From: Bryoerythrophyllum caledonicum
Taxonomy: Eukaryota > Streptophyta > Bryopsida > Pottiales > Pottiaceae
Reading direction: 5' to 3'
Assembly: GCA_963971425.1 (NCBI GenBank)
Contig: OZ020524.1
Location: 12,279,845 to 12,343,844 of the forward strand
Length of the DNA stretch: 64,000 nt
The notes beneath the pieces were generated by a model. The model was not told the DNA's origin. It saw nothing but the letters and a program-made list of their open reading frames with translations, and did not search any database. The translations under genes and the position numbers were made by a program. Of this stretch, positions 26,226 to 56,500 are shown one piece after another (within the stretch, counting starts at the first letter, position 1; every line of letters starts with the position of its first letter).

Positions 26226-26255
26226 AACTTCTAATTCTCAATGAATGTTGTATTT

Positions 26256-26283
26256 AACTATTTCTGGACTTTGCAAAGTCCAG
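26256..26283. repeat. Left terminal repeat with an overlapping 20-bp perfect palindrome
   Basis: AACTATTTCTGGACT (26256-26270) matches the right end in inverse orientation. Overlapping it, CTGGACTTTGCAAAGTCCAG (26264-26283) is a perfect 20-bp palindrome that could form a hairpin or bind a dimer. The right end lacks this palindrome but has the CTGGACTA word twice. Confidence 0.75.
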
Positions 26284-26371
26284 GATTAAGGAAGAAGGAT
26301 TTTAGTCTCGTAAAATAGTCGCACCAAAGAATATGAAAGGGATACCCAGTTAATTTATTTTAATCATTCAG

Positions 26372-26622
26372 TCGGATATCTCCGGATGGTTTCAGTGATA
26401 CATGACTAATCGAATATAGTGATAAAACAAGCGTGAAATTTTGTTCGTCGTGATCGACAAAATGATAACAACTTTCAAGCTAACACGTTTATAAAACAAC
26501 CATGTAATATGGTGTACTGTACATTTCTGTGGTAATATCGTGTAGAAGATGAGTACAGTGCATTTCAGAGCTTGAAGCATTGACATGCAAGGAATGCCGT
26601 TCAGACATCCGGAGATATCCGG
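26372..26622. repeat. Left subterminal palindrome variants (GATA centre)
   Basis: TCGGATATCTCCGG at 26372-26385 and CCGGAGATATCCGG at 26609-26622 differ from the internal palindrome in the central four bases; read on one strand both have the arms CCGGA/TCCGG (one arm base changed in the first) around GATA. They lie 116 and 353 bases inside the terminal repeat. Confidence 0.85.
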
Positions 26623-26808
26623 TCGAAAGCAAAGTACTAAAAATATAATTGCTCGGCTGTTCAAAAACGACAATGCTACTCTGGAATGAAGTCTCTTTAC
26701 AAAAGCGTTTGATACAAGACCAAATGTAGGAAAAAGCAGTGACTGGTCTGAGCAAAATTCGTGAATCTAACAACAAATTCTATCCTTGCACAACCTCTCT
26801 GAAGAGCT

Positions 26809-27261
26809 CTAAAGATCCTTCCAGTGAGCCGGTGCGTACATGTCCGAATCGACATCAGACCCTGTGTCACACCCAGTTTGAAATGGGCTGCAGCCGCCAT
26901 CCGAAGAAGATTCCTCCTCGTCTTCATACCAGGGGTCGTCCTCCACATCTTCTTCAACCGAAGCAGCTCTATCAAGGGTCTCTTCCACATCGGAGTCGAT
27001 CTGCTTCTCGTCCTCCGCATCACAGTCGATGCCGTAGTCCTCCTCTTGAACAAACTTGCTCTCAGCGTCATCCTCCAATTCGTCTAGAACACGCCGATCG
27101 GAACAGATCGCCCTTCTGTACTCGACTTGTAAGAAAAGCAGTCTTCCCTTCTCCGAACCCTGAGCCTCGCTCACCATCCTTCGTGAAACTCTCCTATCTA
27201 CCAAATCAGAGACATCCCTCTCCCTCTTTCTACTTCCGAAAGCCATCTCCTCTCTCTCCAC
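26809..27261 (-). CDS. Small acidic protein with conserved C-terminal motif
   Basis: A single open frame of 150 residues (a second ATG begins M-A-F-G-S). The N-terminal third is basic (R-K-R-E-R-D, D-R-R-V-S-R-R-M), the middle and C-terminal parts are strongly acidic (runs of E and D), and the protein ends F-Q-T-G-C-D-T-G-S-D-V-D-S-D-M-Y-A-P-A then H-W-K-D-L. The same terminal motif ends another acidic protein at 48137-48559, which argues that both are real genes under selection at the C terminus. It lies at the left end of the large element, transcribed outwards, between the palindromes at 26609 and 27817. No known family is recognised. The basic/acidic architecture would suit a DNA-binding or adaptor protein, but that is a guess. 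Confidence 0.7.
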   Translation of the reverse strand: MEREEMAFGSRKRERDVSDLVDRRVSRRMVSEAQGSEKGRLLFLQVEYRRAICSDRRVLDELEDDAESKFVQEEDYGIDCDAEDEKQIDSDVEETLDRAASVEEDVEDDPWYEDEEESSSDGGCSPFQTGCDTGSDVDSDMYAPAHWKDL

Positions 27262-28212
27262 CGTGGCTATGGCCTAACAAGACTTATGGTTGAAAGACAA
27301 AACATATGGATTACTGCAGCCCTGAACCCTCTCTTATACAATCCTCCCCACCAACCCACTAACTACACTTCTCGAGCGTAGGTACATTGATTTAAGTCGC
27401 TATAACACCAAGACTGATGGACTTAATGGCAGATGCCAAATTCATGAACGAACAACATGGTAGGCCACGCGTCAAACGTCCTGTGATAATGAGATGTGAG
27501 AAGTACAATCTCCGCCGCCAACCATCAGCATCATTTCAATCAAATGAAGGAACTCGGATGACTGATATTAACTGTGTAATTGACCGCCCACTTTCATATT
27601 AGCAGTGGCATGTCATAAATCAAAGAAGGAACCAGCCAGGAGAATGCCAAAAAGGTCTCTGTCATTTTGAAACAAGTTCCATTGATAGAGAAATTGCAGT
27701 ATCGTAGTCACAGAAGATCTCCGGATATGATTCAATAATATTCAGAACACCTAGGGAAGCTCAAAATTGGGAAATGTGGATCCCATTGTTAAGAATGGTA
27801 GATGTGAATCTCGTATCCGGAGATCTCCGGCTAGATCTCACCCACTTGAACAAGGAAATCCATGAACATTCGTCCGACCACGAAATTTGTCTTCCATACC
27901 CGGAGATCTCCGGTAAGCGTCCTATGAGATATGCGGGTCTGAAAATATTCCGGTGGAATAAACCAGTCAATAATAATTGTGTCACTACTCAATGTATCCT
28001 AATAACAGTGAATGGAAGAGCGCAAATCTGGTTCTCTTCACGAAAAGTGGCGAGAGCTGATAGGAGGGATGTCGAACTCTGGACCAGAAAATAATAGTCT
28101 TCACAGCCGGAGATCTCCGGTGCTCCTCCGTGAGGTCGAAGAGACTCGACGAGATTTTTCAGAAACAGAATTTCACAGAACAAAATTCTAGGTATTGGGA
28201 CTGATCACCGGA
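27262..28212. other. Intergenic DNA of the large element with three exact palindromes
   Basis: Between the acidic gene and the end of the transposase gene there is no coding frame. Palindromes lie at 27817, 27900 and 28107, with a half site (AGATCTCCGG) ending at 27724. Both flanking genes are on the minus strand, so this holds the promoter of the acidic gene and the 3' end of the transposase gene. Confidence 0.6.
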
Positions 28213-31200
28213 TCAAGGGTCAGCGGCATTCGCTTTCTCTAAGTTCACAAGCGCTGCTTCCTTCATTTTACGTGGAATGGATCTCGTGAGTTGGTTAACT
28301 TTGCTAGACCAAGTCGCAAACAAAACAGAACTCACATGACACCATACATGCTTCTCTTGGTCCGGAACCCAAGTGGCTTCCCAACAGTCCTGGTACTTCC
28401 GCTTCAGATTCTTCTGCTTGTTATCAGGCTCCCAATACTTAACGAGGAATTTTCCGTGGTTGACATTACCCTCATCCCTGACGACGTCCGAAACTGCTCT
28501 ACCCTGCCAGACAGGATAGATGTCTGGATCACTAGGTCTAACTAAAATCCAGGACCCGAGACGAATATCACGCCAAGGATTAAATGTGGACTTTGGGGCT
28601 TCATTGGCGGGTCCACAATAAGGCTCGAGAACCTCATCTTCGGGGGTGACATCCAATGGTTGTGGAAGCGATCCTAGCGGATTTTCACCTCCCTCATGAG
28701 GGCCTCTCCAATCATGGGCTGGCCAAAATCCCTCTTCAAGCTCGGAGGGCGTCTGTGGAAGTGGCTTGTCAAGCTCGTCGATGACGTCCCTCCAGTATTG
28801 CAGGTATGGGCGGATGGAGTCTGCGTAACCTGCGCACTTTGACATTCCAGACACCCAGTAGTCCACGTACTTCCGAAGCCCCGTCTTAATGAAGTTTTTG
28901 TTCTCCGTCGCTTTTCTGGCCTTGTCTCTGGCAACATCTTGGTTTCCGACCGGGTTCTGCTCCTCATTACCCCATATAGGCTTGAAAGGGACGGGCTTCG
29001 GAGAGCCTGTTGGAAGCATGGGACGTCCGCTGTCATCTACCTTCCAGAGTTTTATCGGCTCTCTGTGCATCGGCAACCACTCTGCGTCAACGGCAGACTT
29101 CTTGAACTTCATGACCGGAACACCATCATTGTCAACGTAGAACTTGAAAAGATGCATATCACTAAGTCCCACCAGACGTGCCGCCCCACTGCATAAAAAG
29201 CCATCGACGTAAGATTTAAAGTCGGCCACCTCTTGGATAACTTCCGGCATGAAGGCTAGTTTCTGTGACTTCATGAATGCCTTCATCAAATCCGCTAGAA
29301 TATATGTACTGCTTTTCTTCAGTTCTTTCGATAGATGACTAAAGTAAGCATCAATATCTTCATGCGTATGTCCGACAACCAAGAAGCCAACCTGTATCTC
29401 CTTGAAAACACCTCGAGCAGTTAGCAGTGATAAGAATGCCATCAAGTACTGGTTCTTGTTGTCCTTCGCTGAGTTGTCGAGCTGTAGAAACAATTTCGGT
29501 GGCAACGGTTTCGGTCCCTTAAAAGCACTGGGCTCCACGGGCTCTAAAGCGTCGACACACCTGCTCTTTCCCCTCATGAGCGCCGTGAACATCGAGTTTG
29601 GAGGAGGGTGCTCGAAGAGCGCGCGCGTCTCATGTAATGGTGCTCCCTCAAGCCGCCTAAAATGTTTTGCCAGAGAGGATATGGTGGCGTTCGAATCTCC
29701 CGGCCATAAAGTAGGAGCATAGTGAGCATACGCTCCGTCGACATGACCGTGAGCCACCATTCCGGTGACATTCATGGGAAGCTGTCCGAGACCAGATGTC
29801 GCCTTAGTAGTCCTCCACATGCGTGGAAGGGCCGTCTTCGCAGTGTCCATCTTGTCGTGAATGACACAGAGAAAGGTCAGCGGCTTCGCCTTCGACTCCT
29901 CCCTCCATGTCGCGTAAAGCTTCCGGCATGATTGTTGGTGATTCAAGTGAGCTTGCCTGTTGCTATAGAAGAGCTCGTATGCGGGCGTACCCTTAGGAGT
30001 TGTCAGTAAGAACTGATTGAACTCATCGCAAGTACTGCATTTTGCGAAGGTGCTTCCAGACGGCTTAATAGCAACATTCCCGAAGAATTCCTTCCTTACC
30101 CTACTAACTGTGGACTGACTTACTGGAGGGAGACCGTAGGAGTCGTTTGTCTGCAAAATGAAAAATTAACCTAGTGAGAGGAAAAATTGAGAAGTACAAT
30201 CCAACAAATGGTGCGAAGTACAGAGTAAATCAATTGAAGGTCAATGCAGAACAACGATGACCCAGCCGGAGATCTCCGGTTAAGATACTTGGACATCGGT
30301 CGACGGAGCAAGGAGAGTACAAATCCATTGCAATATGCGGGGACTGATAACGTACATCATTGACGCTGGCTCGAATTTGCTTCCAGTTGTTTCCCGCAGG
30401 AAGATACTTGAGAGTGTCAATCCGACCATTCCCGACACTCCGCATTTGGTAAGGCATTTGATCCGCGTTGTCATTAATAATCGACGTCATTGAGCCCATC
30501 GCCTGTATAGTGGCAAGCCGTGGGCGCTTGATGCCCTTGTTACCGTGAGTTGCATTAATGATTCCTCTACTGAAATGTGCGATGTACGTGTGAAACGTGG
30601 ACTTCCGAATTCCATGGATCGTGTACCATGCAACGGAGCAAACCTCCGTTCCCAAGAGCGTGACGTACTTTCTCTTCCGGTCCCCATCAATGGAGTGGAA
30701 CTGCCCACCTACCGAGATCGCATACTCCTTTCTATCTTCAAAGGATTTGTCATAGAATTTCTGTCTAACAGAAAGAGTCTGGGATTGTTGAAAATACTAG
30801 CAGCATCGTTTGGGACAGCACCTTTCCGAGCTGACTTTGCGAATTTCGTCGTCGGTAGTCCTCTTGGTGTACAAGGATTCCTTCTTGTTAAGGTCTTGCT
30901 GTCGGGAAATGAAGCGGTAAGGCTCCTTCGCACGACCCCCCAAATGAGCGCCAGAATCTGGTTGTAAGGGCATGGATGCGAAATGATCAATTGTGCATTT
31001 CAATGAACGACCGGAAGGAAAACAACATTGAAGAATGGGCCACGACTCATGACTCATTATTCTCTCCGTGTCTCCCACAAAAACATCAAGGACAGTTACA
31101 CCAATATTATCTTCTCCCAAACATCCACTTCGGAAATGGTCTGCTGGGAAAGCGGCCATGATTCTCCCAGAGCAGAGCACCAACCCATCTCCGTCCAACC

Positions 31201-31669
31201 GCTGCACTTCAAGTCCAACCCATCGCTCTCGTGGTACGAATGGGGACTCGTCGGACCGGAGATCTCCGGTTGGAATCATGACATCCGCCCTTCTCCATAA
31301 AACGGTCCGCCGGAGTGTGTGAATAAGTGAATTGTATCCGCGTTGCAAGGGAATGAGTGGTAATTCTTCCGCCGCGGGGCATATGGCCGTTGGTCTAAGT
31401 AATACGAACTCACTAGATCCGATTGGTATGTCAATTCCAAGCCATTGACCCATGGGGTGAACCTCAACAATGGACGCTTCTCCAATTTCACCTGAACCTG
31501 GCCTCATAAGGTTCACGGACATTCCTGACCACAGGACCTCCGATCTTCCTGTAGACTCCTGGGATGGATCATCTTCTTCCGTGAAATTCACATGTCCAGA
31601 ATCGGAGCACTGAGCTGCTACCATGGCAAGGTCTTCCGAGTCACTCTCCCACCAATCTGAGTCAGACAT
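28213..31669 (-). CDS. DUF7869-like putative transposase, interrupted by an in-frame TAG
   Basis: Two exons, complement(join(28213..30150,30356..31669)), phase 0, total 1,083 codons. The intron (GTACGT donor, TTTTGCAG acceptor) contains a palindrome at 30266. The chosen start gives M-S-D-S-D-W-W followed by an acidic region. Near codon 283 comes C-C-P-K-R-C-C, then TAG (30797-30799, codon 291) in a frame that stays protein-like on both sides. Around codon 342 is C-S-V-A-W-Y-T-I-H-G-I, then H-G-N-K-G; C-x2-C at about 476; a metal-binding-like H-D-K-M-D at about 536-540; L-Q-L-D-N-S at about 663; and G-H-T-H-E-D-I-D at about 698. These match, as I remember it, the DUF7869 RNase H-like proteins found in many plant, oomycete and algal mobile elements. 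The C-terminal 150 residues look like a small chromatin-reader-type or SH3-like fold. The TAG could be a nonsense mutation or part of an unseen intron. Confidence 0.72.
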
Positions 31670-31992
31670 AGTCCCGTGCTGCATCGGTGGAATCTCGGTT
31701 GGTGGCTGATGTCCTGAATGAGAAATTGTGTGTATGTAGAGTCGATTTGGATGACCAACCTCAATATCCTCGTCAGGGATATCCGGAGATCTCCGGCAGA
31801 GCGGATAATGATCGACAACGACGACTTCTTGTTTGATTTTGAGAGAGAACAAAACAGAAGTAGCCGGAGATCTCCGGGAATCCTGCTTTCGATGATTCTG
31901 ACAGCCACTGGAATCAAGGGGTGAAACCGTGGTTACCGGGCGAGATTGGCAGAATCCAGAATAGCACGGCATGAACAGCCGGAGATCTCCGG

Positions 31993-33053
31993 TTCAGTTT
32001 TTTGGCCTTGATCGAATCAACAGCCGTACGGAATATTCGCGGGTATGGCGGTGTGATACAGTTGCATAACCCGGTTAACAGTTCGGATTCACACGCCAAG
32101 AAATTACGTCATCTATATACTCGAGTCGAATATATTTACTGCTTCAGGGCTATGACTGTATTTTCGGAGACGAATTAGTTTAAAAATCTCTACTCGAGAG
32201 CTCCCGATCGACTTAGAGGACAGAATGCAACACAATCATCACCAATCCTCACAGACAGACAGTGAATACGGAATTATACGAGGGAACATACTTTACATTC
32301 CTGGAATAATGTCGATTCGTTTCCCTACAGTTATCTAGCACGATGTCGCGCAAGCGAACACTGTCACTGACTCGCTCAGCTCCCATAGTATCTCAAACAT
32401 CCTGAGCAAAAAAGGAGGAGAGCTGAGTTGAAGGATACTCTTATCCACCTTTCCATCACCTCGTGGAGGGAAAATTCAGGCGCTCAAATTTGAAACGAAT
32501 CTTGGGCATGCATGCTCCTTCAAACTAACTGCTGTACACCATCATGATTGTGCGCATTCTTCGACGTGCCCACGACCGAGGCCACATTCCACTCATGATA
32601 ATGAAAGGCTCGTACTCATGGGATGACCGTATTGTAAGGATACCATCTAATTCCTAGAGTGCTGCAAATTTGAAAACGGATGATGAAGTATGCCCCATGA
32701 TGTATCTTTGAATATACTAGGGCCGTATCACGTCTTAGACTAAATCACAGTAAAATGTAATCGTACAGGACTTCTCGTACTCACCTTTGTTAAGTAAATT
32801 ATACCCTACACAAGGAAAGGAGACGGCCCTCAGCTGCCTACTAGTATTGTTCATCAGGCAATACAAGACTCAAGTAGAACATCGGCGTTCGTTACCAATT
32901 AGAATAATCTCCAATATTGCCTAGTTCGACAGAAGTTATATGGATGCTTGAGAAAAAACGTGCACAAATAACTGAGCAGATGCTTTTAGAAGTACAGCAA
33001 CCCGGTCCTATGAATTCGGGTACAGCTTCCGTGTTCAGGCTGGATTGTGCATC
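31993..33053. other. Central non-coding region, no palindromes
   Basis: No coding frame longer than chance and no copy of the 14-bp palindrome, unlike the DNA on both sides. It lies between the divergently transcribed transposase and ParB-like genes. Confidence 0.5.
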
Positions 33054-33215
33054 AGGGTTTTAGGGTTTAGGGTTTAGGGTTTAGGGTTTAATGTGTCCGG
33101 TTTAGGGTTTAGGGTTTAGGGTTTAGGTTTTAGGGTTCATGGTTTTCACGGTGTAGGGTTTAGGGTTCACAGTTTCTAGTTCACGGTTTTAGGGTTTAGG
33201 GTTAAGGATTCAGGG
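33054..33215 (+). repeat. Interstitial telomere-like repeats (TTTAGGG)n, degenerate
   Basis: About ten TTTAGGG or near-TTTAGGG units, interrupted by variants such as TTTTAGGG and GTTCACGG. This is the plant telomere motif, but the array is short, impure and internal, so it is not a chromosome end. Confidence 0.85.
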
Positions 33216-33860
33216 TTCACGGTTCACCGTGGAGGGGTCTGAGTTCCTGAAGGTTGAGGGCTTATATCACCTGTAAATGTATAAATTAAAAATATTTTAT
33301 AACTATGAACTATAACCTTAAGTTTATCCATAACCATAACTTTTTAAAAAAACCTGGATACTATAGAGTGTAAGGAAATTTAGCGAGAATTGAACAATAA
33401 CTATTTATTTTGATACATTATAATTTAGTTAGAGAGAGAATAAAGAAGAGAAGGAGGGTAATGGATTTAATTTTAGAGTAGACTAGCTGTTGGCGCTTGC
33501 TTTGCAATGCATTAGCCCAACCATTTTTATGTATTTATAATATTAAAAAGTATTAAAAAGTAAAAGGTGGAATGGTTCACTATATTGTTGACAACGCGGT
33601 TGATTGTAGCGTTTTTGTAGTTCACTGCATGGTTGACTACGTGATAGTTCACTCCGTGGTTTACTGCGCAAATTATGATTTTAGTAGTATGACTAGGAGT
33701 TGGCTCTTGGTTTGCAACACATTAAATCAACCATTTTCATGTAGTTTTTATATCACAAAGTATTTAAGAAAAAAGGTAACAACAATCTACATAAATATGA
33801 ATATATCTTTGAAACCTATGCATTAATTTGAATAATGTAATAGAATGGGATAGAAAAAAA

Positions 33861-34702
33861 AATACTATTACAATAGTTCAATATTATTAACTATGGATGG
33901 AGATTGAGATAAAATAGGGAGAGTAAAACTAAAATAAATAAATAAACAAGTATGAGGGAGAGTTAGGGAGGGAAGGAGAGACTTGAGGGATTTATTTTTA
34001 GAGTAGTGTATATTTTTAGAATATGTAATAAGGGGAATCTAAAAAGAAAATCAAATGTAAAAAAGAGATGGGGAGGGAGAGTAAGGGCGAGGAAGAGTAA
34101 AATAGGGAGAGTAAGGGATTCTTTTAGAGTAGTAAGTTAATTATAGAATGTGTAAGTATTGAAATCACGAGGAGTCTAAAAAATATTAGAATCAAGATTA
34201 AAAAAGAGATGGAGATGGAGAAGGAGGGGAGAGTAAAACAAAAATAAGAAAAACAAGTGAGGGAAAGAATAGGATAGTTAAAAAATACTATTACAATAGT
34301 TCAATATTATTAACTAAGGATGGAGATTGAGAAGGAGGGGAGAGTAAAACTAAAATGAATAAATAAACATGTAGGAGGGAGAGTAAGGGAGGGAGAGTAA
34401 GAGAGAGAGAGACTTGAGGGATTTACTTTTAGAGTGGTTTATATTTTTAGAATATGTAATAAGGAGAATCTAAAAATAAAATCAAATGTAAAAAAGAGAT
34501 GGGGAGGGAGAGTAAGAGAGAGGAAGAGTAAGAGGGGGAGAGTAAGGGATTTTTTTAGAGTAGTAAGTTAATTTAAGAATGTGTAATTATTGAAATCACG
34601 GGGAGTCTAAAAAATATTAGAATGAAGATTAAAAAAGAGATGGAGATGGAGAAGGAGGGGAGAGTAGAACAAAAATAAGAAAAACAAGTGAGGGAAAGAA
34701 GG
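33861..34702. repeat. 423-bp tandem duplication, purine-rich
   Basis: The block starting AATACTATTACAATAGTTC at 33861 recurs from 34284 with small differences, so two copies of about 423 bp lie head to tail. Both are rich in GGGAGAGTAAGGG-type words. No coding potential. DNA before it, from about 33280, is also AT- and GA-rich and without genes. Confidence 0.85.
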
Positions 34703-34773
34703 GAGGGAGAGTAACGGAAAGGGAGATTCAGCTTTTCCACTAATGTCGTTTTAAATTCAAGTATAATTATTAC

Positions 34774-34872
34774 TCTAATACCCGGTGAACCCGAGTATCT
34801 ATTATAGTCATATCTAATACCCGGTGAACCCGAGTATCTATTATAGTCATATCTAATACCCATGAAACCGGG
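34774..34872. repeat. 39-bp tandem repeat, about 2.5 copies
   Basis: Units begin TCTAATACCCGGTGAACCCG at 34774, 34813 and 34852, the last one altered and incomplete. Confidence 0.9.
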
Positions 34873-35587
34873 TATCAATACGTCTTCTCACGCATGCTCA
34901 CGACATTGACAATGTCATGATTGTGAAATGGACACGTTGTACATGTACGTCATTTCAGCTGATTTTTAACTTCACCCACTGTCATCATGAGCCGTCACAC
35001 CCTTGAGCCGTCCAGCTTGTCCTCTTTGGGTTTTGGGAACTCCAAGAATGAACCATTTCTTGATTTTTTTGGCTTTTGTCTTCGTAATGTCGAAGGTAGT
35101 GAGCGGAAGTGGCGGGAGGGGTTTTCTTTCTTGGTTTGCGGAGTCGGCGTCGACGCATTAGGTTAGTTTTGTATGCGCTGTGAGAGGCCGTTGGTGTGCG
35201 AGGTGAGTGTTGATTTATGTGAGGGACATTGAGCGTGCCGTGGAGAGGTTGTTAACTGGATATGGACTGAAGGTCAGAGAGTAGGACTGAAAGAGAGCGA
35301 ATGCATTAGGAAGAAATTTGAAGAGCGCCTAGGTTTGGTAGCCAAGAGTGAACGACGTTGCGGTTGAGGGTGGCGTCAACACGAACGACCACGACGTACG
35401 GGTGCGCCGATTCGGCAAGTGAAGAGGTATGTAAAGTCTCAAAAATGGCTTTCAGTGAAATTTCAGTTGAATTTGCACAGGACTTCATAGAATCGTCACT
35501 GGAGCAGGTGTAGGGTTCGGTAAGCTTCATTAGGGTTCGAGAGAGTCGAGTAGTACTGATGTTGATAATCGTTTGAGCGAAATAGAA

Positions 35588-35606
35588 GGGTTTAGGGTTT
35601 AGGGTT
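35588..35606 (+). promoter_or_regulatory. Telo-box upstream of the ParB-like/HAD gene
   Basis: GGGTTTAGGGTTTAGGGTT lies about 220 bases before the proposed start codon at 35824. Such motifs are common in plant promoters and 5' UTRs. The region from 34873 to 35823 otherwise shows no convincing gene and probably contains the promoter of the plus-strand gene. Confidence 0.4.
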
Positions 35607-35823
35607 CTAGTTTTCTGTGCATTCAGTTTCGAAGGGCCGGAATTGAGCAATTTATGCAGTGTTGAAATTTGTTCCACCGAATTCCTGTATGTCAGAACTG
35701 GACCATACATTCTAGGGCATTTGAGAGATTGTATAGTTTGTCGTTCTGAGTTGTTGAATGCTTATGTACTGCAGAGTTGTGTATACGCTTTAATCCAGAG
35801 CAGTTACTGGAGGAGATTGCGAA

Positions 35824-38800
35824 ATGGCGACTACAGCAGGGACGTGGAATGAGAGTGCGTGGGATGGAAACCGGTAAGTATACACAATTGAACTGTTTAT
35901 GCTCAGTCCGGGCGACCAGGTGGGGTTCCTTTTTTTGAGTGAGTTCCGAATTAGTTCTATTATTTCGGAGTGGACGAACACTTGAATGATTTTGAAAAAC
36001 CTCAAAAAATGCGTACTAGAATTCCGATGTCTGTTTGGCTATAGACGATTGGATTTTTGTTGTCCCGTGAACATATTTGTATATCTATTCATGAATATGC
36101 GAATGATTTTGGAATTCCATGAATGTTTGAATGTGCTGTTCCTCACTGAGTCTGTCGAGTCTGGTTCGATTCAATGTATATAGTTTAATCCATGTAGAGT
36201 CGTCAAATTTGGCGTTCCATCGAAACATTAGCGGATTCTTCTTCTAATGTGTAAGGTCAAGTTGTAACAGAATTGTGTGAGCTCATTTGATACATATATT
36301 TATGTTCTCAACTATGTAACTTGGTATTTAAGTATGTCAAACTTCAAGAGTTATACGTCAAACCTCTCTGTAAATGAATGTAAATATTCGAGTCCTGATA
36401 TGATCCGATTAGTGCTTCGAAGTGCCGTACGTGCTTCTGCCGGAGATCTCCGGCTGAAAATACGGAGTTCTAGTAATCAGCCGGAGATCTCCGGATGATG
36501 TAGCAATCAGATGAATATGTTAATCCTATACAGGAGTTAGTTATTCTCGAAAGTAGCCGGAGATCTCCGGACGTATCGAAACAGTGGAAATTCGCGTTGA
36601 GGGGTCATTAACCGGAGATCTCCGGTTCAGGTCAGAAATAGACCCGTCAGAGCAGCCAGGATTCGTTCCTTGTCGGATGCACTCGACTTCCCCAAATCAG
36701 CCGGAGATCTCCGAGTACTGTCCCCTGCTGGCACTGTGATACAGATTTGGAAGCACGATTCATGGTTTCAATATCTAGGAACTTGTCAGGTGATTTTGTT
36801 TCGGATTCTTGTTATTGACCAGACAATTGCATCGATTCTAAACTGCCTGTTTGTTCTTTCAAAATCATCTTGCAGGGATTCGTGGACTACCACACTTCCG
36901 ACTGAATGTCGACCCGGGAAACTTGGGGCATTTGTAGAGTATTGGCTCCCTGAGTTTGTCTACAGAGGGATCCACAATGTCGGCTACGTATACAATTGCC
37001 GAAAGAGCATAACCCAGTGGGACATCAAGCTCATTAAAACCCCTGACGGTGCCTGGGAATTCGTCCCTCAGCTTCGGATTGGCAAACGGGGTCACCTCGA
37101 CATTGGTCTCCAGGTTCTCGAGTTGCAGGGTCTTGATGACGAGGTCAGTCTCGTCATCGTCCAGGAGAACGTGGACTCCTCCACCGAGCCGCATATATAC
37201 GGCTTGATCCTAGAATCATCTAAGATTTCGGATGAGATGGTGGAGACCTGCCAGAGTGAGAACTTTTTATTTGCCCCTCCAACGGGTGATACGTGGTATC
37301 CGGAGTACGTGAATGAGCAGTGGAAGTGGATGGCTGAAGCACAAGAGAAGTCTCGAATGCCCGTTCCAGACGCAACTCCCAATCTGTCTCTGACACCAGC
37401 ATCGACCTTGGCAAGAAAACGCAAGACCACCTTGAAGACTTCGACCCCAGGATCTTCATCGCGGGCGGAGAAGGGAAAGAAAGCGAAGGCCGATGAGCCA
37501 GGCCTCGCGATCGAAAGGTGCCTGAACTTCACACAGGCTGACCTCACAAAAATGAAGCGGACTGAAGTGGAAGCAATTGGCAAGGTACTCGACGACGCGT
37601 TCAAAAACGTTTACATACACAATAATAAGCCTTTGACAGTAGAAGACCCTGACACGAAGAAGGATGTCGTGAAGCTCGTTCATTTCGATAAGCTGCACCG
37701 GGCCCCTCCTGGAGGATTAGTATACAGGGGCATCCAGAAAGAACGGCTTGAAGGAATTATCAACGCAGTTCGCGCGTCTTCGAAGGCCACGGCACCTGAG
37801 ATTCACATTCGAGTCCTGCCACTGAAGAAGAAACCTGAAGGAAGTAAGGTAGAGTTTTTCGCGACCAAGCCGACGAAGGAGGACTGCCTGAGGGACTCAA
37901 CACACTTTTACATTATCGGAGGTCAGCATACTGTGGCGGCGCACAAGGTTCTGTCACACGAATTGCCAGCAACGTGGACGCTTGAAGAGATCTCCCACTT
38001 CTCTATCATCCCGGTTTGGACAAAACCGGACCCCAAAGACATGACCCTCCTACAGCTCTCGCGCGCTCTTAACCAAGATCTGACGGGTTTGCGGAAGGAG
38101 CAGAGTTTCACTGAGCAGCTGCAGACGTGCAGAGTGAAGTGGTTTGAGTTCGGTAAACCAGCCCCCCAACTGTATGGTCGTCCTCAATCTGACGCATTCT
38201 CGGTAAATATACATTCTCAACCTGAAAATATTTTTTATTCCGTGGCTGTGCTCTATCCTCACAACAACCAAACTAATCATCCGGAGATCTCCGGCTGCTT
38301 AGACCCTGTAACTGTTTTCATTGCAGACGTTCCAACGGCAAGTGGTGCCAACGGTTTTTACACACCTCGGTAAAACAGACCCCAAAGACGCGAAGGTCCC
38401 AGTTCTATTCGAGATGGATGATGCGGTGGTCCAGAAGTGGATCCGAATCGACAGGCTGTTCGTCGCTGGAGACTTACCAGACTCCAACGGGAAGACGGGG
38501 GACCCAGCTAAGCTGAAGCGGAAACCTCTGGTGCAGAACGACTTCAAGCCTCTTTACAAAATGCGCGCTGAAGACCTAGACTACCTCGCGGATTTAGTGC
38601 TCGAGAAGAAGGTCTGTGTGAAGTCCTCCAAAGCGGCAAACCAAGGTACTATGAAAGGGCAGGCGGAGACTCTCGAAAACGCGGCGAACAGAGAGAAGAG
38701 AGTCCGTGCAATGAAGAATGAACTGATGCTTAAATACAAGTCGCACCCCCTTCCCTCGAAGTCTGCTGACTTCGTCCCATACACAAAGGAGCAGTGGAAC

Positions 38801-41510
38801 GTATTTGCCGAAGAGAGGAATATTGGAAGGGTCCAGCTCGAGTCCTGGGTCGACGCCGCTAATCACTCTGCCAAGGGTAAAGCTTGGCTTGAGGGTTGAC
38901 TGAAGGCGATAAACAAGGATACCGACCCCACTCCAGACTTCCTCGTGTCCATTTGGCAAGGTAAAATTGTGGTCGTCTACTACTTCCCCCACCCTGGTGA
39001 TGGATTTCCGGTTCCAGTAATTGGGGTCGAGGAGACAGTATACTGCGTATTCCTGTATGAATACAATTCAAGCGAGACGCCTGCTCAGTCATTCAAGAGG
39101 CTCTTCAAAGGCCACCCCGAAAGAATGCCGGCCTTCTTTTCAGCCGCTCAACATAAAGAAACCATCCAGCGCTGGAAGCAAACCGGTGTCCCACAGCTGA
39201 GGATCTCGGTCCTGGATTCGTTGTTCACGGGATACATCAGAGAGGGTATGGTGGTCGTCAATGTTCATGGAGGACCACATATTACATACCTCGGCTTGGT
39301 AAGCAAGACATCCTTCCGAAGCAATCCAATGTCTAAGATTTCCGGTCCGCATACAGTTATATGAATTGGATATCGCCGTCCTAATTTTTTTTTGGTTTGC
39401 AGACTCACGACGCGCGGGTCCTCGAGATTGTGAACAGCGAAGATGCCAAAGTAAATGCCGAATCCTACGCAGAACAAATATTCAAATTCCACTTGAATAT
39501 CTTAGCTGACGTTACCGACGCCGATCCTGAGGAGTTACTGGAGACTGACATCACTGGGTCGACCCAAGGCGCTGGTGTTCAAACACGGGCTATGTCAAGG
39601 ATGAATTACACCGGCGAGGTATAACGCCTATGGATACTACCCGACCCGGAGATCTCCGGATGTTTATTCCATTCGGATGCCCTCCATTCTTTTGGACTCG
39701 TCTTTATCATTGCCATGTTTATTTTTAGTTCCCCCGGTAGACTCGGACAACTTTGAACCGGAGATCTCCGGGTGTATGATACCGTTTTATTTCGTATTGC
39801 GTCTTAATGTATTCCACACTGACTTCGTCAATGTGACGCAGACGACTGATGCCACGATGATTGATGTTGATGTGCGGAATGAACCAAGTTCATCAGCGGT
39901 TCCCAATTTTAGACTGGATTCCTTGGCTATAGCCGCTCGGATCATCGGTGTGGGCACCCCAATCGACCCATTGCAGGTAAACGTTGATGAACCACATCCT
40001 GCTGTCAGGCGTGCCTCGCCTAGTTCAACAAGCGACTCTACTCTGGACGGTAGATGGCGTCCCTCTCAAATGGAAACCAGTTCGCATTCCGATAGGCAAC
40101 GTTCTCCTCCGCCAGATCTGGACGATGACACGGCAATGTCCGATCGCCTGGAGTTCGACCACACCCACAGAGCACCCGGAGATCTCCCGCTGGACAACCC
40201 TTCCACGACGCGTCCTGAAGTGGAGGTTGTGTCCAAGACTGCCGAGGACCTGACTTTGCGTGACACTGATCACACGATGGATGAGGCATCGGCGCAACAA
40301 ACATTGCGTGAATTACAGGTTATGAGCCCTCCGCGCAGCCCTCCACGAAGCCACGGGCAGCTGGCTCAGAAAGAGAAGAAGAAGGCAATCGCGAAGAATC
40401 CTGTGCCGAAAGTTCCTCCTCCTCCGCCTACAGTTCGGACAAGGGCCCAGAAAGATAAGGTGAACAATTACTTGTCCATCAAACCTTCTTGATTGTTCTC
40501 AAGACAGTGCACTCTCTGCAGACCGTGTTCTTACCACTACATTACTGGTATTCAGGTGTCGGCTGGATCAACACAGTCGAAGGATGTCGGTGGCAGAAGC
40601 CTCGCACAGACTGCTGAAGTCGCTGGTGTAGCTCAGACTTCTAGGGATACTACACCTACTGTCCCAGGTGCCTAATATGGACATTCATACTTACGTGCCA
40701 TCATCTATATAGTGCTCATTCTTTCATCCAGCATTTCTGGGTTCTGAGTGCGGCACACTTTTATATGTATCTTTGCAATTTCTCTAAGCTGTACAAGTTC
40801 CTCATCTCAGCCGACGTACTCGTATTTTGGGTTCAGGTCTGAAGAAGTTTACGACGATCGTCCGAGAGCCTCCAATCGAGGATCAGGTAACACAACAACG
40901 GGTTTATCATGTCGTGTTTGACTTAAATGGAGTTCTTGTGCACAGGGGGGAATTTAAACAGGGACAACCGAGAGACATCAAAGTAAGGCCGGGTTCCACT
41001 GAAATCCTGAACTTCGTGGGAGAGAAGGCTACTGTCTCATTCTGGAGCAGTGTACTAGAAAAGAATATTGTGGATATCATCAAGGAGTTGCGCAAGAAAG
41101 GTGCTACCATTCCGGAAGGCGCCAGAATCCTGACACATGCCGATTGCACAAAAACATCATATATGCTTCCATCTCAGCCAAAGAAGCCAATTTTCCTAAA
41201 GGACCTGACAGTTTATAATAGCAAAGCGTCGCCCACATCTCCTAAGGATGTCTTGCTTGTGGACGATACCCCACTAAAGAACATCCTTAACGATCCCTTC
41301 AGCGCAGTTCATCCGCCATCATGGACTGGGAATACGGGTGAAGCCTGGTTGACCACCATGTTTCTCCCATGGCTCTCCGGACTACTAGCGTCAAATGAGG
41401 ATGTTCCCGACTTTGTTAGACGGAATCAATTGAAGTTTGTCAATGATCCAGTAGACAAAAATTCCACTCAGGCTCGCTCCGTGGTGATGGGCATAATTTC
41501 GGCGCCTTAG
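35824..41510 (+). CDS. ParB-like domain protein with C-terminal FCP1-like HAD domain, interrupted by an in-frame TGA
   Basis: Proposed exons: join(35824..35873,36876..38202,38327..39298,39403..39618,39842..40459,40556..40667,40837..41510), all GT-AG and phase-consistent, 1,322 codons. Exon 1 (M-A-T-T-A-G-T-W) ends at a strong GTAAGT donor. Residues about 190-225 are basic. Residues about 295-430 hold Y-R-G-I-Q-K-E-R-L, then Y-I-I-G-G-Q-H-T-V-A-A-H-K (about 362) and L-S-R-A-L-N-Q, resembling the G-x-x-R/H-x-x-A-A and following helices of ParB/sulfiredoxin-like domains. Residues about 855-1060 are Ser/Pro/Asp-rich and probably disordered. The C-terminal 225 residues are FCP1-like: V-V-F-D-L-N-G-V-L, F-W-S-S, and L-L-V-D-D-T-P-L-K-N. 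The second catalytic Asp of D-x-D is Asn, so phosphatase activity is doubtful. TGA at 38897 (codon 650) sits in otherwise open sequence; a 60-base GT-AG intron (38877-38936) could remove it in frame. Splitting into two genes, with a stop at 40492, is the alternative. Confidence 0.65.
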
Positions 41511-41862
41511 AACAATGAAATATACTGGATAGTATTAACTCTATGCTTTGTAAATGTTTCGTCATGAATGTCTGTCGGATTTTGACCTTTCAATTTTGAA
41601 GACAAATGTTCTTGTCAGAAACGTTATTTGTTGAGGTCCTTCATTTTATTTGTTATTGTTGGTGTCTCGCCCCCAAACTTCACCCTTAATATCTATGAAC
41701 TCTATTGAGTATTCTCCTGACCATTTCCACTGCAGAACGTTGGTCTGGGAGGGGCACCCGGAGATCTCCGGTCCAGGATGTGACTTCAGTTCCTCCTACC
41801 ATATTTTCTCGTCTTTTCAATGTTCAATTTCTAATTCTATGGTCGTGCCATCTATTTCGCAG

Positions 41863-42315
41863 GTCATAATCATATCTCTCCGTGGTCCTCTCTGCTCGGA
41901 CGAGGTCCTTGACTCGGCCAAGTCCCGATCCGCGCAGCTGCCTTCCTTTGATGACACCGCAGATGTTATTCGAATACTACTGCGGTATTTCAATGTCGGG
42001 ATCTGGTCTCCTATGCGTCCAGATAGGCTCATGGAGGCGGCCCAAGTGTTATTGCCCCCAGACATCTTATCAGATATTCTTTTTTGCTATGCCAGCAAAC
42101 AGACTCGAAGGCCCAGCTATGTTAGGTTTCTCCACATCTTTAAGAAGGCCTCATTTAATCCTAGAACAAGGCATTATTTGTGGCCTAAATCTGTTGTTGT
42201 TGCAGATCTAGATCCATTCAAGAATCCTAGAAAGGCTATAGTTCATTATCTAACATATGGGAGACACCATACAGGACGGGTAGAGGGCATCTGTAAAGCA
42301 CTAAAATTAGAATAG
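41863..42315 (+). CDS. Second, degenerate FCP1-like HAD domain (exon or separate gene)
   Basis: After a good acceptor (CTATTTCGCAG, ending 41862) an open frame of 150 residues runs to a TAG at 42313. It aligns by eye with the HAD domain just upstream: I-S-L-R-G-P-L in place of F-D-L-N-G-V-L, a F-N-V-G-I-W-S block in place of V-S-F-W-S-S, and V-V-V-A-D-L-D-P-F-K-N in place of V-L-L-V-D-D-T-P-L-K-N. The nucleophile aspartate is gone, so it cannot be a HAD phosphatase. The intervening DNA contains the palindrome at 41758. A splice from about 41483 in the previous exon would join them in phase 0 and skip its stop codon, giving a tandem-HAD protein, but that donor is weak. Confidence 0.55.
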   Translation, partial: VIIISLRGPLCSDEVLDSAKSRSAQLPSFDDTADVIRILLRYFNVGIWSPMRPDRLMEAAQVLLPPDILSDILFCYASKQTRRPSYVRFLHIFKKASFNPRTRHYLWPKSVVVADLDPFKNPRKAIVHYLTYGRHHTGRVEGICKALKLE

Positions 42316-42431
42316 TTGATTCGATTCTCCGTAGATTACACGAGCCTCTTATCAACGGCTACCCTTCATATTTTGTATGACACTTTCTTATAATGAAACA
42401 GTTTAGTACTGGACTCTTACTCTGATTTCAT

Positions 42432-42776
42432 CCCGAGATATCCGGTTGCATGTTCTATCAATTGCGAGTAATTTCTGTCCGCATCTCTGTCCCATTTTTT
42501 CCTACCACATGTTTCCCAACCACACATTTGTGATGTACAGTATGTCCATTAATTTCTGTCTTCAGGACTCGGTTCTTCTTCTGGTTTCCACTTTGATATT
42601 CACCCGGAGATATCCGGCTGCATGTTCCGGACTCACGTATTGTCTAAATTCAAATTTGGTCGCTCTAGCCATTTCTTCCTTCATAAGTGTCATTGGTGAT
42701 GCATTTAATGCTTGAAAAGTACTCGAAACTCCTCGGCTTTTACGCTTCACTCTCATTTATGAGGCACATCTCCGGA
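42432..42776. repeat. Right subterminal palindrome variants (GATA centre)
   Basis: CCCGAGATATCCGG at 42432-42445 and CCGGAGATATCCGG at 42604-42617 mirror the variants at the left end; a half site ACATCTCCGG lies at 42767-42776. They sit within 400 bases of the right terminal repeat. Confidence 0.8.
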
Positions 42777-42812
42777 TCTTTCTTTTAGTCCTTAGTCCAG
42801 AATTCACCTCAT

Positions 42813-42827
42813 AGTCCAGAAATAGTT
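42813..42827. repeat. Right terminal inverted repeat of the large element
   Basis: AGTCCAGAAATAGTT is the exact reverse complement of the left end at 26256-26270. Just inside it CTAAGGACTAAAAG-type words resemble the left subterminal sequence. No matching direct repeat flanks the two ends. Confidence 0.7.
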
Positions 42828-43435
42828 GAATTGATCATATGATAGAATCTTTTCCGAAAGTGAAAGGGGGCCACCCTGCATGCCACCTTCTACTTTATGG
42901 TCTTACGTTAGCAACCCGGACCGTATGGACAGGGTGACTTGGCTTGAGAAAGTTGTGGAAGAACTATTGATCAACTCTTTCATAACTAAGGGTACTATGG
43001 GGGAGTTTTAGCTTGCATTGGATAGGGCCCAAGAGCATTGATTCAACCATGCATTTCATTGGTGCATAAAAAAGAAGCATGAAATTCCTCATGCTCGCTT
43101 TATTTCAGTATTCAACTACAAATGACAAAAGTCCCGAGGTGGGCTTTTACAAATCTTGGACACGTTTCCATGGTTGCAAGCTATATTTACAATTCCTTGC
43201 AATTTTGTACAAAGATGCAAGACTACATGGAAATATAGTTTTTTTCTCGTTAGATTTATGTAAGAAGAGTTATGTCATCTTGAAGAAAATATCTTGAGAT
43301 TGGGCTCGTCAAGCAACTCCAATTTTTTTTTCCGAGGACTGTATTAGATGTGATATTTTTAATACTAGCAAGAAATATTATTTCTTATCATATTTTCAAA
43401 AAAAATCTTGTTTTTTATCCTAAAAGCCTATTTAA

Positions 43436-44361: not shown

Positions 44362-44575
44362 ATGTTCACACATTGTCACACATTGTCACACATTGTCACA
44401 CATTGTCACACATTGTCACACATTGTCACACATTGTCACACATTGTCACACATTGTCACACATTGTCACACATTGTCACACATTGTCACACATTGTCACA
44501 CATTGTCACACATTGTCACACATTGTCATACATTGTCACACATTGTCATACATTGTCACACATTATCACACACTA
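44362..44575 (+). repeat. 10-bp tandem repeat ACACATTGTC, about 21 copies
   Basis: A nearly perfect array of a 10-bp unit; a few units near the end read CATACATTGT or CATTATCA. Because 10 is not a multiple of 3 all three frames are open and give repeated T-H-C-H-T-L-S-H-I-V-type peptides, which are an artefact. The parent MITE at 7632-8564 has one such unit at the same place, so the array grew inside the element. Confidence 0.95.
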
Positions 44576-48136: not shown

Positions 48137-48559
48137 TCAGTTCTTGCACCATGCAGGAGCGTACATATCGGAGTCCACGTTCGAACCGGTGTCGCATCCG
48201 GTCTCAAACGCATTGTTCGAAAAGCTTGAAAATGAATCGCTGTCAACGTTTTCGGTAGCCCAGAAGTCCAACTCATCCAATCCATTGCAGCAGCGATCCT
48301 CTTCATCAGAGCATCCCAATTCAGCATCAACATGAAGACTGCCATCGTCGTCGGAATCGCCATCGAAGTCGGACTCCCCTTCGTCAAGTACATCTTCATC
48401 ATTCCTGACAGTCGACAGAACAGTGCTATCCATAGAGAACACAGACACCACACTATCCTGAGACTCTGCCTCCCTGACAACTCTAGCCGCATTTGCCTCC
48501 CTCTCCTCCCTTTCCTCTCTCGCTCTCCTAACAATTGCCATACTACGAGTCTCAACCAT
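48137..48559 (-). CDS. Second small acidic protein with the same C-terminal motif
   Basis: From the ATG at 48559 (M-V-E-T-R-S-M) the frame gives 140 residues: a basic/charged N terminus (R-R-A-R-E-E-R-E-E-R-E), a long acidic middle and the ending F-E-T-G-C-D-T-G-S-N-V-D-S-D-M-Y-A-P-A then W-C-K-N. The last 20 residues match the acidic protein at 26809-27261 at nearly every position while the rest is only similar in composition. An in-frame ATG at 48619 is possible but adds a hydrophobic stretch absent from the relative. No transposase or terminal repeat was found around it; an assembly gap lies 0.3 kb upstream. I read it as a remnant of a related element. Confidence 0.65.
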   Translation of the reverse strand: MVETRSMAIVRRAREEREEREANAARVVREAESQDSVVSVFSMDSTVLSTVRNDEDVLDEGESDFDGDSDDDGSLHVDAELGCSDEEDRCCNGLDELDFWATENVDSDSFSSFSNNAFETGCDTGSNVDSDMYAPAWCKN

Positions 48560-48849
48560 GTCGTCGGCTGGAAGCAGAATCAGACTAAGAAACGAAGAAA
48601 ACGAGCAAAAACTGTACACTCCAATCTGTTGCCAGGGTTGTCTACATAGACGGACAGGGGCCCAAAGACAGTGGATGGATGGACACTAGGACGGACGGAC
48701 AGGACGGACAATACTTTTTGGCGGACAGTTGCGTGTAAAAAAAAATTACAAATCCTAAATCAAATTTTCAACTTACCCCCTAGTAAAACACGTGTGCACG
48801 ACACATCAGACATCTTTCCACGTCACATCAAGGGGCGGGCGCGTGCCTT
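48560..48849. other. Upstream flank of the second acidic gene; GGAC-rich repeats
   Basis: From 48648 to 48728 GGACGGACGGACAGGACGGAC-like words repeat. The remainder up to the gap is unassigned. Confidence 0.5.
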
Positions 48850-49049
48850 NNNNNNNNNNNNNNNNNNNNNNNNNNNNNNNNNNNNNNNNNNNNNNNNNNN
48901 NNNNNNNNNNNNNNNNNNNNNNNNNNNNNNNNNNNNNNNNNNNNNNNNNNNNNNNNNNNNNNNNNNNNNNNNNNNNNNNNNNNNNNNNNNNNNNNNNNNN
49001 NNNNNNNNNNNNNNNNNNNNNNNNNNNNNNNNNNNNNNNNNNNNNNNNN
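48850..49049. other. Assembly gap (200 N)
   Basis: Exactly 200 undetermined bases, so probably a gap of unknown size. The DNA on both sides is GC-rich (GGGGCGGGCGCGTGCC before, GGGGCCGGGCGCGCAG after), which suggests a collapsed GC-rich repeat. Confidence 0.99.
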
Positions 49050-53512: not shown

Positions 53513-56500
53513 ATGTCAGGAAAAGACAAAGAGAAAAGAGAGAAACAAAAAGTCGAGAGAGCTCAACGTTATAAGAAAAGGGTAGAGAGGAAACAACCAA
53601 CTATAGTGTTAGGAGTACATAATCCTACCTTTAACACTGTTACAACTCCTTCTCCCTTCAAACTAGATGAGGAAATAGAAATAGCCTTAGAAAAGGCATT
53701 GAGACAAACAAAAAAGGAGACAACATACAAAACACTACCCGATCCTCCAAATTCTCCTCAGTCAGACACAAAGACACCACAATTTACCCCAGAAGAGTTA
53801 GTATTTGCAGCCTTAAAAAATCCTAGGAAGAAATATATAGGAAAAAGAAAAGATAAAAAATATACGAGTCACTCTTGTTGTTCTAGTAGCCCGGAAGAAG
53901 TAAATTGGGAGACCCAAAGTGAGAAGGTTTGGTCTAAATCCTTAGAAAAGGAAGGATCCTCAGAAGAGGAAGAAGTGGATGAAAAACCTAACATTCATGA
54001 TCAACAACTTGATGAGTTAGAGCGATTGTTTAGAACCCCCATACCCCAATCTTTAATAAATCGTACATATGAAGTAGGTAACTCCTCAGACCAAACAAAC
54101 TTTGAAACTCCCTATCCAAGTCCTTTTGCCCAAGAATTTGAGTCAATACCAATATTTACTCATAGTGAAGCAAAAGAATCTATTGACCATTTTCTGAATG
54201 ATAGACCATTGGAAAATGAAGAAGAAAAGCATAAGTTTCGTAAGGAGTTATTAGAAGCTTTTAGTCAAATTCTTAGACCTACCACTTTAAACTTTGACAT
54301 ACAAGAAGAGATTGACCAAATTAGTGTAGAAGGAGCGGAATTTAAGTATAATCCTATTAAAGAGGAAAAGTTAGATGTAGGTGAGCAAAGTGAGCCTAAA
54401 GAAGGTGAAAGTTTATTTAATAGTGAAAGTAAAGAAGAAGAGCACTCAGAACCACCAGTGCGAGAAGAGAGTCCAGCTGGACTCCCCTCACATACTTCTG
54501 GGAGGACTTCTCCTTTTGACTCTTCTTCTGCTAGTTCTACCTCTAGCAGGTCCTCATTATCCTCACCACCTTCAACCCCTCCTACTCCAGACGACCCTTT
54601 TGTTAATCCCCTTGCTATGGCGCATCATAGGATGCTTAATATAGCTCCATTTCCCATATTCTATAGTGACTTGGGAGAAGATCTAGATTCCTACTTGGAA
54701 TGATTTCAAGTAGTAGCAATAGCTAATAATTTAGCAATTGATAAGTACATCACTAGTTTTCCTGGTAATTTACTAGGGGAAGCTCAGAGGTGGTATGCGG
54801 CATTAGATCCTCAACCAATAAACTGGGATGCTTTAAAAGAAGCATTTTTGACCAGGTTCAGACCCCAGTCTTATCATAATACTTTGCAGGATCAGTTACA
54901 AAGTTTTCAAATGTATCCCACAGAAACTATAGCCGGATATTATACTCGGCTTAGAAACTTATTGAATAGATGGCGAGATCATAATATGCCAGAAGCATGG
55001 ATCACTAATACCTTTACCAGAGGTTTATTAGATCCTATGTGTATATACCAGGTTAAACTTTCCAACCCGGCAAATTTAAATGCAGCATATGAAGCTGCTA
55101 GAAATTGGGAAGCTGCTATGCAGCGATCTAATATGTTGTTACAAACAAAAAGAATTCCATATCAGGATCCATATCTTTTACCTGTATCTACTCAATATGG
55201 GATGGATAATAGTGGAAGAGATTATTATCCTAGGTCAACATCTAGTCAACCCCAATTAACCATACAAGGACCACCTCATCCTCGAGAGCAACAACTTGCG
55301 TTGATGCCTCCAAGTCATGAGGAAAATGAGCTACAAGCCTTACAAAAACAATTTAGGGAATTGTCAGTCCAAGTTAATGAAGGAAAAAATAAAAGACCTA
55401 AGGCTACTAATCAACGAACTAATATTTGGTGTAGTAATTGTAAGGGACATGGACACTTGGCCACCGAGTGTAGATATCCTATAGGAGGAACACCTAAGCT
55501 TAAATGTGCTTATTGTGGTGCAAAGGGTCATGATATAACTACTTGTAGAAATATCAAGGAAGTTAAGGCTTTAGTACAAGAGCAACCTTCTCAAAATAAT
55601 AACCAAAAACAACCTTATAGAATTACATCCAAACAACCTTTCACCAGACCAGGAAACAATAATAACAATCCGAGAAGAAATAATGGTTATAGTCAACATC
55701 AAGTTTGGAGAGAACCTAACCAAGATAGAAACAAAGAAGTAGTATGTTATAGATGTGGAGAGCCAGGTCATTATTCTAGGGAGTGCACAAATGCACGTCA
55801 ACAAGTTGGTTTTAATCCCTTGTGTGGGAGATGTGGCCAAACCGGACATGTTTCTACCTTTTGCACAGCCATAATTAATGAGTTTCCTAATGTTAGGAAA
55901 CAAGTTCAAATTCAAGAAGTAGAGTCTTCTAATACTAGAAATGTTAATTATATGGCAATTGATACACCTCAAGATGTCTTTATCACTAGATCACAAGCCA
56001 AGAAGGCCCTTGAAAAAGAACCCATTAATAGTTCAGAGAGTGATTATAGCAAAGTAAAACTTAATCCTGTGCTTGCTAGAGATATGTCAACTATACTAAA
56101 AAGACCAGAAATTCTTAAACCATCACCACAAATAATAGAGATAACAAGTAGTGATTCTCGGGAAAATCCAACTCAAGTACCTATAACATCTACTTTGCCA
56201 GAAAAAGTTGTACCTATAATTCCAAAAGTGGAAAAAACAAGTACCTCCATGAAACCATTGGAACAACCTACTTTTTATAAGCCTTCAAAAAAGATAATGA
56301 AAGAATCATCTATGTCTTTAAAAAAGAGAAAACATAATAGAATTATGAGATTAGCAGTGGGTATGCATCCATATGATATTCTCACAGATTTAGATAGATT
56401 ACAACCTCAAATTTCTTTGAGACAATTACTTGCATTGTCACCTTATTGTAAAAATGAATTAACATCTTCTCTAATTAGAAAGAGAGCAAAAATACAAGAG

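Follow-up and report, generated by a model that had tools for sequence, protein, structure and literature searches.

In a 64,000-nucleotide stretch of the moss Bryoerythrophyllum caledonicum (contig OZ020524.1, positions 12,279,845 to 12,343,844; hereafter the window), a DNA transposon at 26245..42838 carries many copies of one 14-bp palindrome, CCGGAGATCTCCGG. On balance, we think it likely that these copies are dispersed docking sites for a dimeric protein that the element itself encodes and that would control the element's own chromatin or expression. The palindrome occurs in 16 exact copies, the first starting at 27817 and the last ending at 41771, as a sequence-only reading of this DNA had reported. 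With up to two mismatches allowed, the window holds 24 matches, where 100 shuffles gave an average of 0.04, and the rest of the 64-kb window outside the element contains no exact copy. Among the 25 commonest 10-base and 25 commonest 12-base words, with 33.0 to 34.9 kb masked, none besides the palindrome and its variants exceeds three copies. Across the genome (437.4 Mb), we counted 2,718 exact sites versus 3 for the reversed word, and the 50 places listed of these 2,718 all lie within four element-sized arrays; the motif is thus not equally dense elsewhere, the outcome that the sequence-only reading had named as its refutation. At ~16.5 sites each, these sites would correspond to some 165 elements, an arithmetical figure made rough by decay. 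A literature search found no mention of the word CCGGAGATCTCCGG.

The element has two divergent main genes, one encoding a transposase on the minus strand and one on the plus strand encoding a protein that we call ParB-like on the basis of a short box only. Sites are found upstream of these two genes, in inferred introns, and between the transposase and a small acidic-protein gene. Three palindromes lie between the transposase 3′ end and the acidic gene (27817..27830, 27900..27913, and 28107..28120), three in the 5′ region of the transposase gene (31783..31796, 31864..31877, and 31979..31992), and four upstream of the ParB-like coding exon (36440..36453, 36481..36494, 36557..36570, and 36612..36625). 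A 17th site, at 36701..36714, has one mismatch in the window copy and matches the palindrome fully in 8 of 10 close copies of the element (defined below). Inferred introns hold five more, one in the transposase gene (30266..30279), one after the first ParB-like exon (38281..38294), and three further along (39646..39659, 39758..39771, and 41758..41771). The remaining site, at 31256..31269, falls within coding sequence, in the upstream exon of the transposase gene, where the frame across it reads ...T-G-D-L-R-S.... A single coding site among 17 of the perfect type, though 48% of the element is coding, has a probability of 0.0002 under random placement, given approximate exons. Beyond the exact copies, further matches comprise four asymmetric variants near the ends, described below, and a coding near-match, CCGGAGATCTCCCG, at 40176..40189 on the plus strand, which is unchanged in 8 of the 9 other close copies and in the diverged copies B and C. 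The flanks of the sites are unlike one another, apart from a slight bias toward T two bases beyond each arm (26 of 34). In other copies of the element, two further palindromes occur in segments absent from the window copy (insertion points 31849 and 36721).

We asked whether the palindromes are retained where the sequence around them has drifted. A DNA search of the genome with the transposase region returned at least 40 matches at 98 to 100% (the best 40 of 691 candidates were scored). The ten close copies considered here are the window copy and nine whole copies taken from the other 39 listed matches; these nine are 94.6 to 98.9% identical to the window copy by long BLAST piece. Five diverged copies, designated c1_6.77, B, C, D, and E, are ~6 to 29% different from it (BLAST pieces of >600 bases), with B, C, D, and E taken from a listing of paired sites and c1_6.77 from a listing of sites. 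Conservation was counted as intact aligned sites versus intact flanking 14-mers, with unaligned sites dropped; the counts for B, C, D, and E exclude the sites at 36440 and 36481, through which those copies were found. In copy B, 14 of 17 alignable sites are intact, versus 0.105 of flanking 14-mers; the corresponding values are 17 of 19 versus 0.314 for copy C and 15 of 21 versus 0.281 for c1_6.77. A pairwise identity check by a second alignment method, which keeps both excluded sites and uses 16 sites of one close copy (14 for D and 15 for E), gave motif and flank identities of 0.982 and 0.766 for B, 0.978 and 0.884 for C, 0.964 and 0.841 for c1_6.77, 0.944 and 0.798 for D, and 0.895 and 0.747 for E. 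The 14-mer is thus kept at matching positions in diverged copies as its flanks drift, which bears out the earlier description of a conserved palindrome with varying flanks and gives good support to the claim that it reflects selection acting at the site and not recent duplication.

The pattern of change within the sites differs by position. The core AGATCT is invariant among the ten close copies: 1,014 comparisons, drawn from 169 of 170 site-copies (the one unaligned was dropped), gave 0 changes, while 5 of 676 CG positions and 9 of 676 outer positions have changed; rates elsewhere are 0.0065 to 0.0275, depending on base class. Over all 15 copies, 48 of 55 site changes are C>T or G>A, and 47 of these fall in the CCGG arms. 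This excess is as expected where dead copies are methylated. CCGG tetramers are kept more often at sites than outside them: 27 of 30 versus 14 of 34 in B, 27 of 30 versus 25 of 35 in C, and 27 of 34 versus 20 of 35 in c1_6.77.

A related word lies near the ends of the element. An asymmetric variant, CCGGAGATATCCGG, is found twice per end in the close copies, in c1_6.77, and in C. In the window copy, the left pair lies at 26372..26385 (minus strand, with one further mismatch) and 26609..26622 (plus strand), and the right pair, both on the plus strand, at 42432..42445 (with one further mismatch) and 42604..42617. These end sites are never the perfect palindrome in any copy readable there (the left end of B was not fetched, and D is unaligned in this region). 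Exact CCGGAGATATCCGG occurs 299 + 364 = 663 times in the genome, with 0 for the control, or about four per element for ~165 elements. This agrees with the figure obtained from the 2,718 palindromes, although both are arithmetical and made rough by decay. The sequence-only reading had contrasted the palindromes with transposase sites clustered at transposon ends; the sites do run along the element, but that contrast needs amending in that asymmetric relatives also lie near both ends.

A second, distantly related family appears to use another word. A genome search with P0005, a distant relative of the ParB-like protein, ranked six frames on small contigs first (the best 92 of 1,423 candidates were scored). 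One piece of this family (L033; 2.2 kb) has a frame 32% identical to the ParB-like protein of the window over 398 residues, and the first family's word is absent within the 2.2 kb read. Instead, the kilobase upstream of this frame holds nine sites of the TCGTGAGATCTCACGA type, against a shuffle mean of 0.08: two are perfect, one has GATATC as in the end sites of the first family, and six have other arms, e.g., CCCCCGA. The words of the two families have GAGATC in common and differ in their arms. Perfect TCGTGAGATCTCACGA has 41 copies genome-wide (control, 0), none on contigs C1 to C15, and one mixed word of this family has 25 (control, 0), 24 of them outside C1 to C15. Furthermore, in 4 of the 6 copies the aligned end of the frame is followed 190 bp later by a perfect site, a position comparable to that of the first family's site at 38281, ~80 bp past its frame. 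To judge from these sequences, joint change of a binder and its word would be expected to produce this pattern, in which comparable places carry a different word.

The ends of the element are sharp. A left terminal inverted repeat of 26 bp, ATGTTGTATTTAACTATTTCTGGACT (26245..26270, plus strand), is paired with an imperfect right repeat (42813..42838, minus strand), and in the ten close copies the left end reads ATGYTGTAT(T/C)TAACTATTTCTGGACT, with the right end as its imperfect inverted partner. The target duplication, ATGA in the window (left copy, 26241..26244; right copy, 42839..42842), is a perfect 4 bp in all ten close copies, with a target that differs from copy to copy; these shared ends and duplications delimit the element. 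The window copy is 16,594 bp long, eight of the nine other close copies are 17.7 to 17.8 kb, and one is 18.2 kb. A purine-rich tandem repeat block of the GAGGGAGAGTAAG type at 33840-34720, which aligns between copies in several registers, is probably the source of part of these size differences. A run of the plant telomere-type repeat TTTAGGG lies at 33058-33205, between the two divergent main genes.

Coding frames were suggested by the periodicity of substitutions, and exon ends are approximate. The minus-strand transposase has at least two exons, a 3′ exon at 28213..30156 and an upstream exon at 30350..31650. The 3′ exon matches DUF7869 (PF25273; E = 3.9e-45), and its predicted fold is RNase H-like, with conserved residues D100, D226, and D266 placed on it by the model. 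Named relatives of the transposase are found in Physcomitrium, Ceratodon, and Riccia. Genome-wide, PF25273 gave 3,613 first-look candidates, and all 150 that were scored exceed the cutoff; DUF7869 is a very large family that may resemble a DDD transposase. A literature search found nothing on DUF7869, and a scan of IMG/VR with the transposase relative P0007 found three stretches that fit a pattern, none of which encodes a relative. On the plus strand are one or more multiexon genes: the ParB-like protein comes first (first coding exon, 36820..38203, start approximate; next exon, 38327..39295, end approximate), then a frame with a NIF-type phosphatase domain (PF03031; 40827..41510; E = 6.1e-13), and then a conserved last exon without a Pfam match (41863..42315). 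The small acidic protein is encoded at 26809..27261 on the minus strand. The window copy is probably nonautonomous because the upstream transposase exon and the second ParB-like exon contain in-frame stops in this copy, which are not present in the reference copy.

Nonsynonymous/synonymous ratios, calculated against B, C, and c1_6.77 (D and E give partly higher values), are 0.12 to 0.16 and 0.17 to 0.35 for the 3′ and upstream transposase exons, 0.14 to 0.19 and 0.19 to 0.27 for ParB-like exons 1 and 2, and 0.16 to 0.27 for the last exon. Ratios are 0.36 to 0.58 for the acidic protein, 0.40 to 0.61 for an exon at 39845, and 0.57 to 0.70 for the NIF-type frame, in which the reference copy itself has one stop. 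Outside the element, a frame at 48137-48619 is related to the acidic protein (shared end TGCDTGS-VDSDMYAPA; BLAST E = 6e-15) and is perhaps a relic of a related element; the stretches adjoining it contain no repeated palindrome. Also in the window are a minisatellite of ~20 copies of CATTGTCACA (44371-44570), a run of 200 N (48850-49049), and an open frame of 1,747 residues with Ty3/gypsy polyprotein features recognized by eye (54848-60091).

If the palindromes are docking sites, a sequence-specific protein of the element's own would bind the two-fold symmetric word (core AGATCT, arms CCGG), most likely as a homodimer. Docking at gene-proximal regions, introns, and ends would mark the whole element as its own and might keep chromatin open or genes expressed, countering silencing by the host. 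The copies with intact sites would then be those that transpose, and protein and word would change together between families. Judged from sequence features, the idea of a dimer site in use throughout the element agrees with the two-fold symmetry, with the predominance of noncoding positions, and with the distant family's different word. We rank the candidate binders, by judgment, as the ParB-like product, then the transposase, and in third place either the acidic protein or the products of the remaining plus-strand exons.

By analogy, this pattern would work like the antisilencing described in Arabidopsis. In excerpts of two reports, VANC21 removes methylation from VANDAL21 copies and recognizes the motif YAGTATTAY (PMC5735166, PMC10398659). 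Its sites lie in introns and in intergenic and terminal noncoding parts, and motifs differ between families (excerpt of PMC5735166); VANC proteins have DUF1985/DUF287 domains (Fig. 5 legend, PMC5735166). So far as those excerpts describe the VANC system, the moss element resembles it in having many copies of one short word in the noncoding parts of a DNA transposon (here with 1 of 17 sites coding) and a word that differs between related families (here TCGTGAGATCTCACGA, in one piece of the second family), but its word is a 14-bp perfect palindrome, unlike YAGTATTAY. We scanned 10 open reading frames (ORFs), nine of which lie in the element, and none matches the VANC-type domains DUF1985/DUF287, coding parts outside those ORFs not being covered. 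The 4-bp target duplication also differs from that of Mutator-like elements (MULEs) and VANDAL, which is 9 bp. Membership in the VANC system is not supported, given that the scanned ORFs lack a VANC domain, the targets are not in tandem repeats, and the target duplication is another one.

Several observations weigh against docking by an element-encoded protein. All five diverged copies were picked for holding some sites, and the two remaining ones retain few: old copy E has 4 of 15 intact versus 0.056 of flanking 14-mers (0.114 changes per base versus 0.226 in flanks), and copy D has 5 of 18 versus 0.077 (0.222 versus 0.291), with its left part misaligned. Among young copies, whole sites decay at about the rate of their flanks, at or below it in 7 of 10 close copies and above it in 3, including the window copy (0.0102 versus 0.0070). 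The repeat-rich 4.4 kb at 32.0 to 36.4 kb, where no coding frame was found, has no sites. VANC targets, in the excerpts cited, lie in fast-changing tandem repeats, whereas the sites here are single, have unlike flanks, and hardly move. Pfam recognized no DNA-binding domain in the 10 ORFs scanned, and the model of the ParB-like protein is poor (predicted local distance difference test score [pLDDT], 43.9). Finally, the second family was read in one 2.2-kb piece, and its perfect palindromes are confined to contigs numbered C200 to C836 (41 of 41), which may be sex linked, unassembled repeats, or another organism in the sample. Our reading of the decay is that individual copies shed sites once they have inserted, whereas lineages retain them, as under selection among transposing copies and not under use by the host.

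Other explanations of the sites were weighed against docking by a dedicated protein. The transposase itself might be the binder, acting near the ends to cut and internally to coat the element or to regulate itself. TnpA of En/Spm binds near the ends of its element, and subterminal repeats are common in plant transposons; the two related variants near each end of the moss element, 663 genome-wide, would fit such a role. As in En/Spm, a short repeated word may be bound by an element-encoded accessory protein, but the En/Spm sites are subterminal, whereas those here run through the whole element. Moreover, 17 internal sites would invite internal cutting, the internal word remains different from the terminal one wherever the two can be read, and the 26-bp inverted repeats lack the word. 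We regard transposase binding as unlikely. Recruitment of a resident host transcription factor for the element's own expression would account for the clusters of sites in front of the two main genes and within introns. Yet the 50 places listed, of 2,718, all being in element-sized arrays argues against it, and one fixed factor would not explain the changed word at comparable places in the related family, leaving this explanation distinctly improbable.

Sites of this kind also recall bacterial ParB-parS, in which a protein loads at short symmetric sites and spreads. A partition or clamp-loading system of this type would fit the symmetric sites of 14 to 16 bp, the box IIGGQHTV, which is invariant in all seven aligned sequences, and a weak PHROG match to a ParB-like partition protein in one of seven members (E = 0.011). 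However, the host of these sites is a eukaryotic transposon, the ParB-like label comes from a box judged by eye and that weak match, no ParB match was found in Pfam or NCBIfam among the seven members, and neither PDB sequences nor the poorly modeled fold confirmed the identity. Seven relatives, none informatively named, came out of a profile search across 5.8 billion proteins in which 7,999 candidates were scored, and a literature search combining ParB with transposable element, eukaryote, and sulfiredoxin found nothing on topic, as judged from the listing. We consider partition very improbable. A VANDAL-independent form of self-recognition, in which the ParB-like protein would load at the palindromes, spread as a clamp, and exclude silencing, with the end variants as boundaries or as a link to the transposase, seems to us scarcely less doubtful. 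Lastly, the palindromes could be small mobile sequences or leftovers of duplication that lie in the element by chance, and two further ones do come and go with insertions or deletions (31849 and 36721). We rejected this explanation, which has hardly any credibility left, given flanks that share only the weak T preference and positions held in common by copies despite flank differences reaching a quarter.

Among known superfamilies, Sola elements have a 4-bp target duplication and a DDD transposase. The moss element is like them in its 4-bp duplication and in its moss host, and its conserved D100, D226, and D266 on the predicted RNase H-like fold may form such a triad; Sola is not known to carry numerous internal palindromes or accessory genes. 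By these general features, rather than by sequence, the element may be said to resemble Sola in target duplication and transposase type. A "Physcomitrella Sola1" is named in a table of PMC9033089. The Lanisha/CMCT group, in an excerpt of PMC12730594, has a C(2)C motif and an H(3-4)H motif located after the second D and before the last E. In contrast, the transposase here has a conserved CxxC at 39-42, before the first D, and no conserved cysteine at 226-311, assuming the D100/D226/D266 triad.

As far as we found, the sequence-specific antisilencing by transposons in print is the Arabidopsis VANC case. If docking by an element-encoded protein at these palindromes is real, it would be a second, apparently unrelated case, and the strategy would have arisen more than once. 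With its exactly defined word, ~165 copies, and a sister family that uses an altered word, it would then offer a clean system for tracing the joint change of binder and word, and such a case would also help in naming DUF7869.

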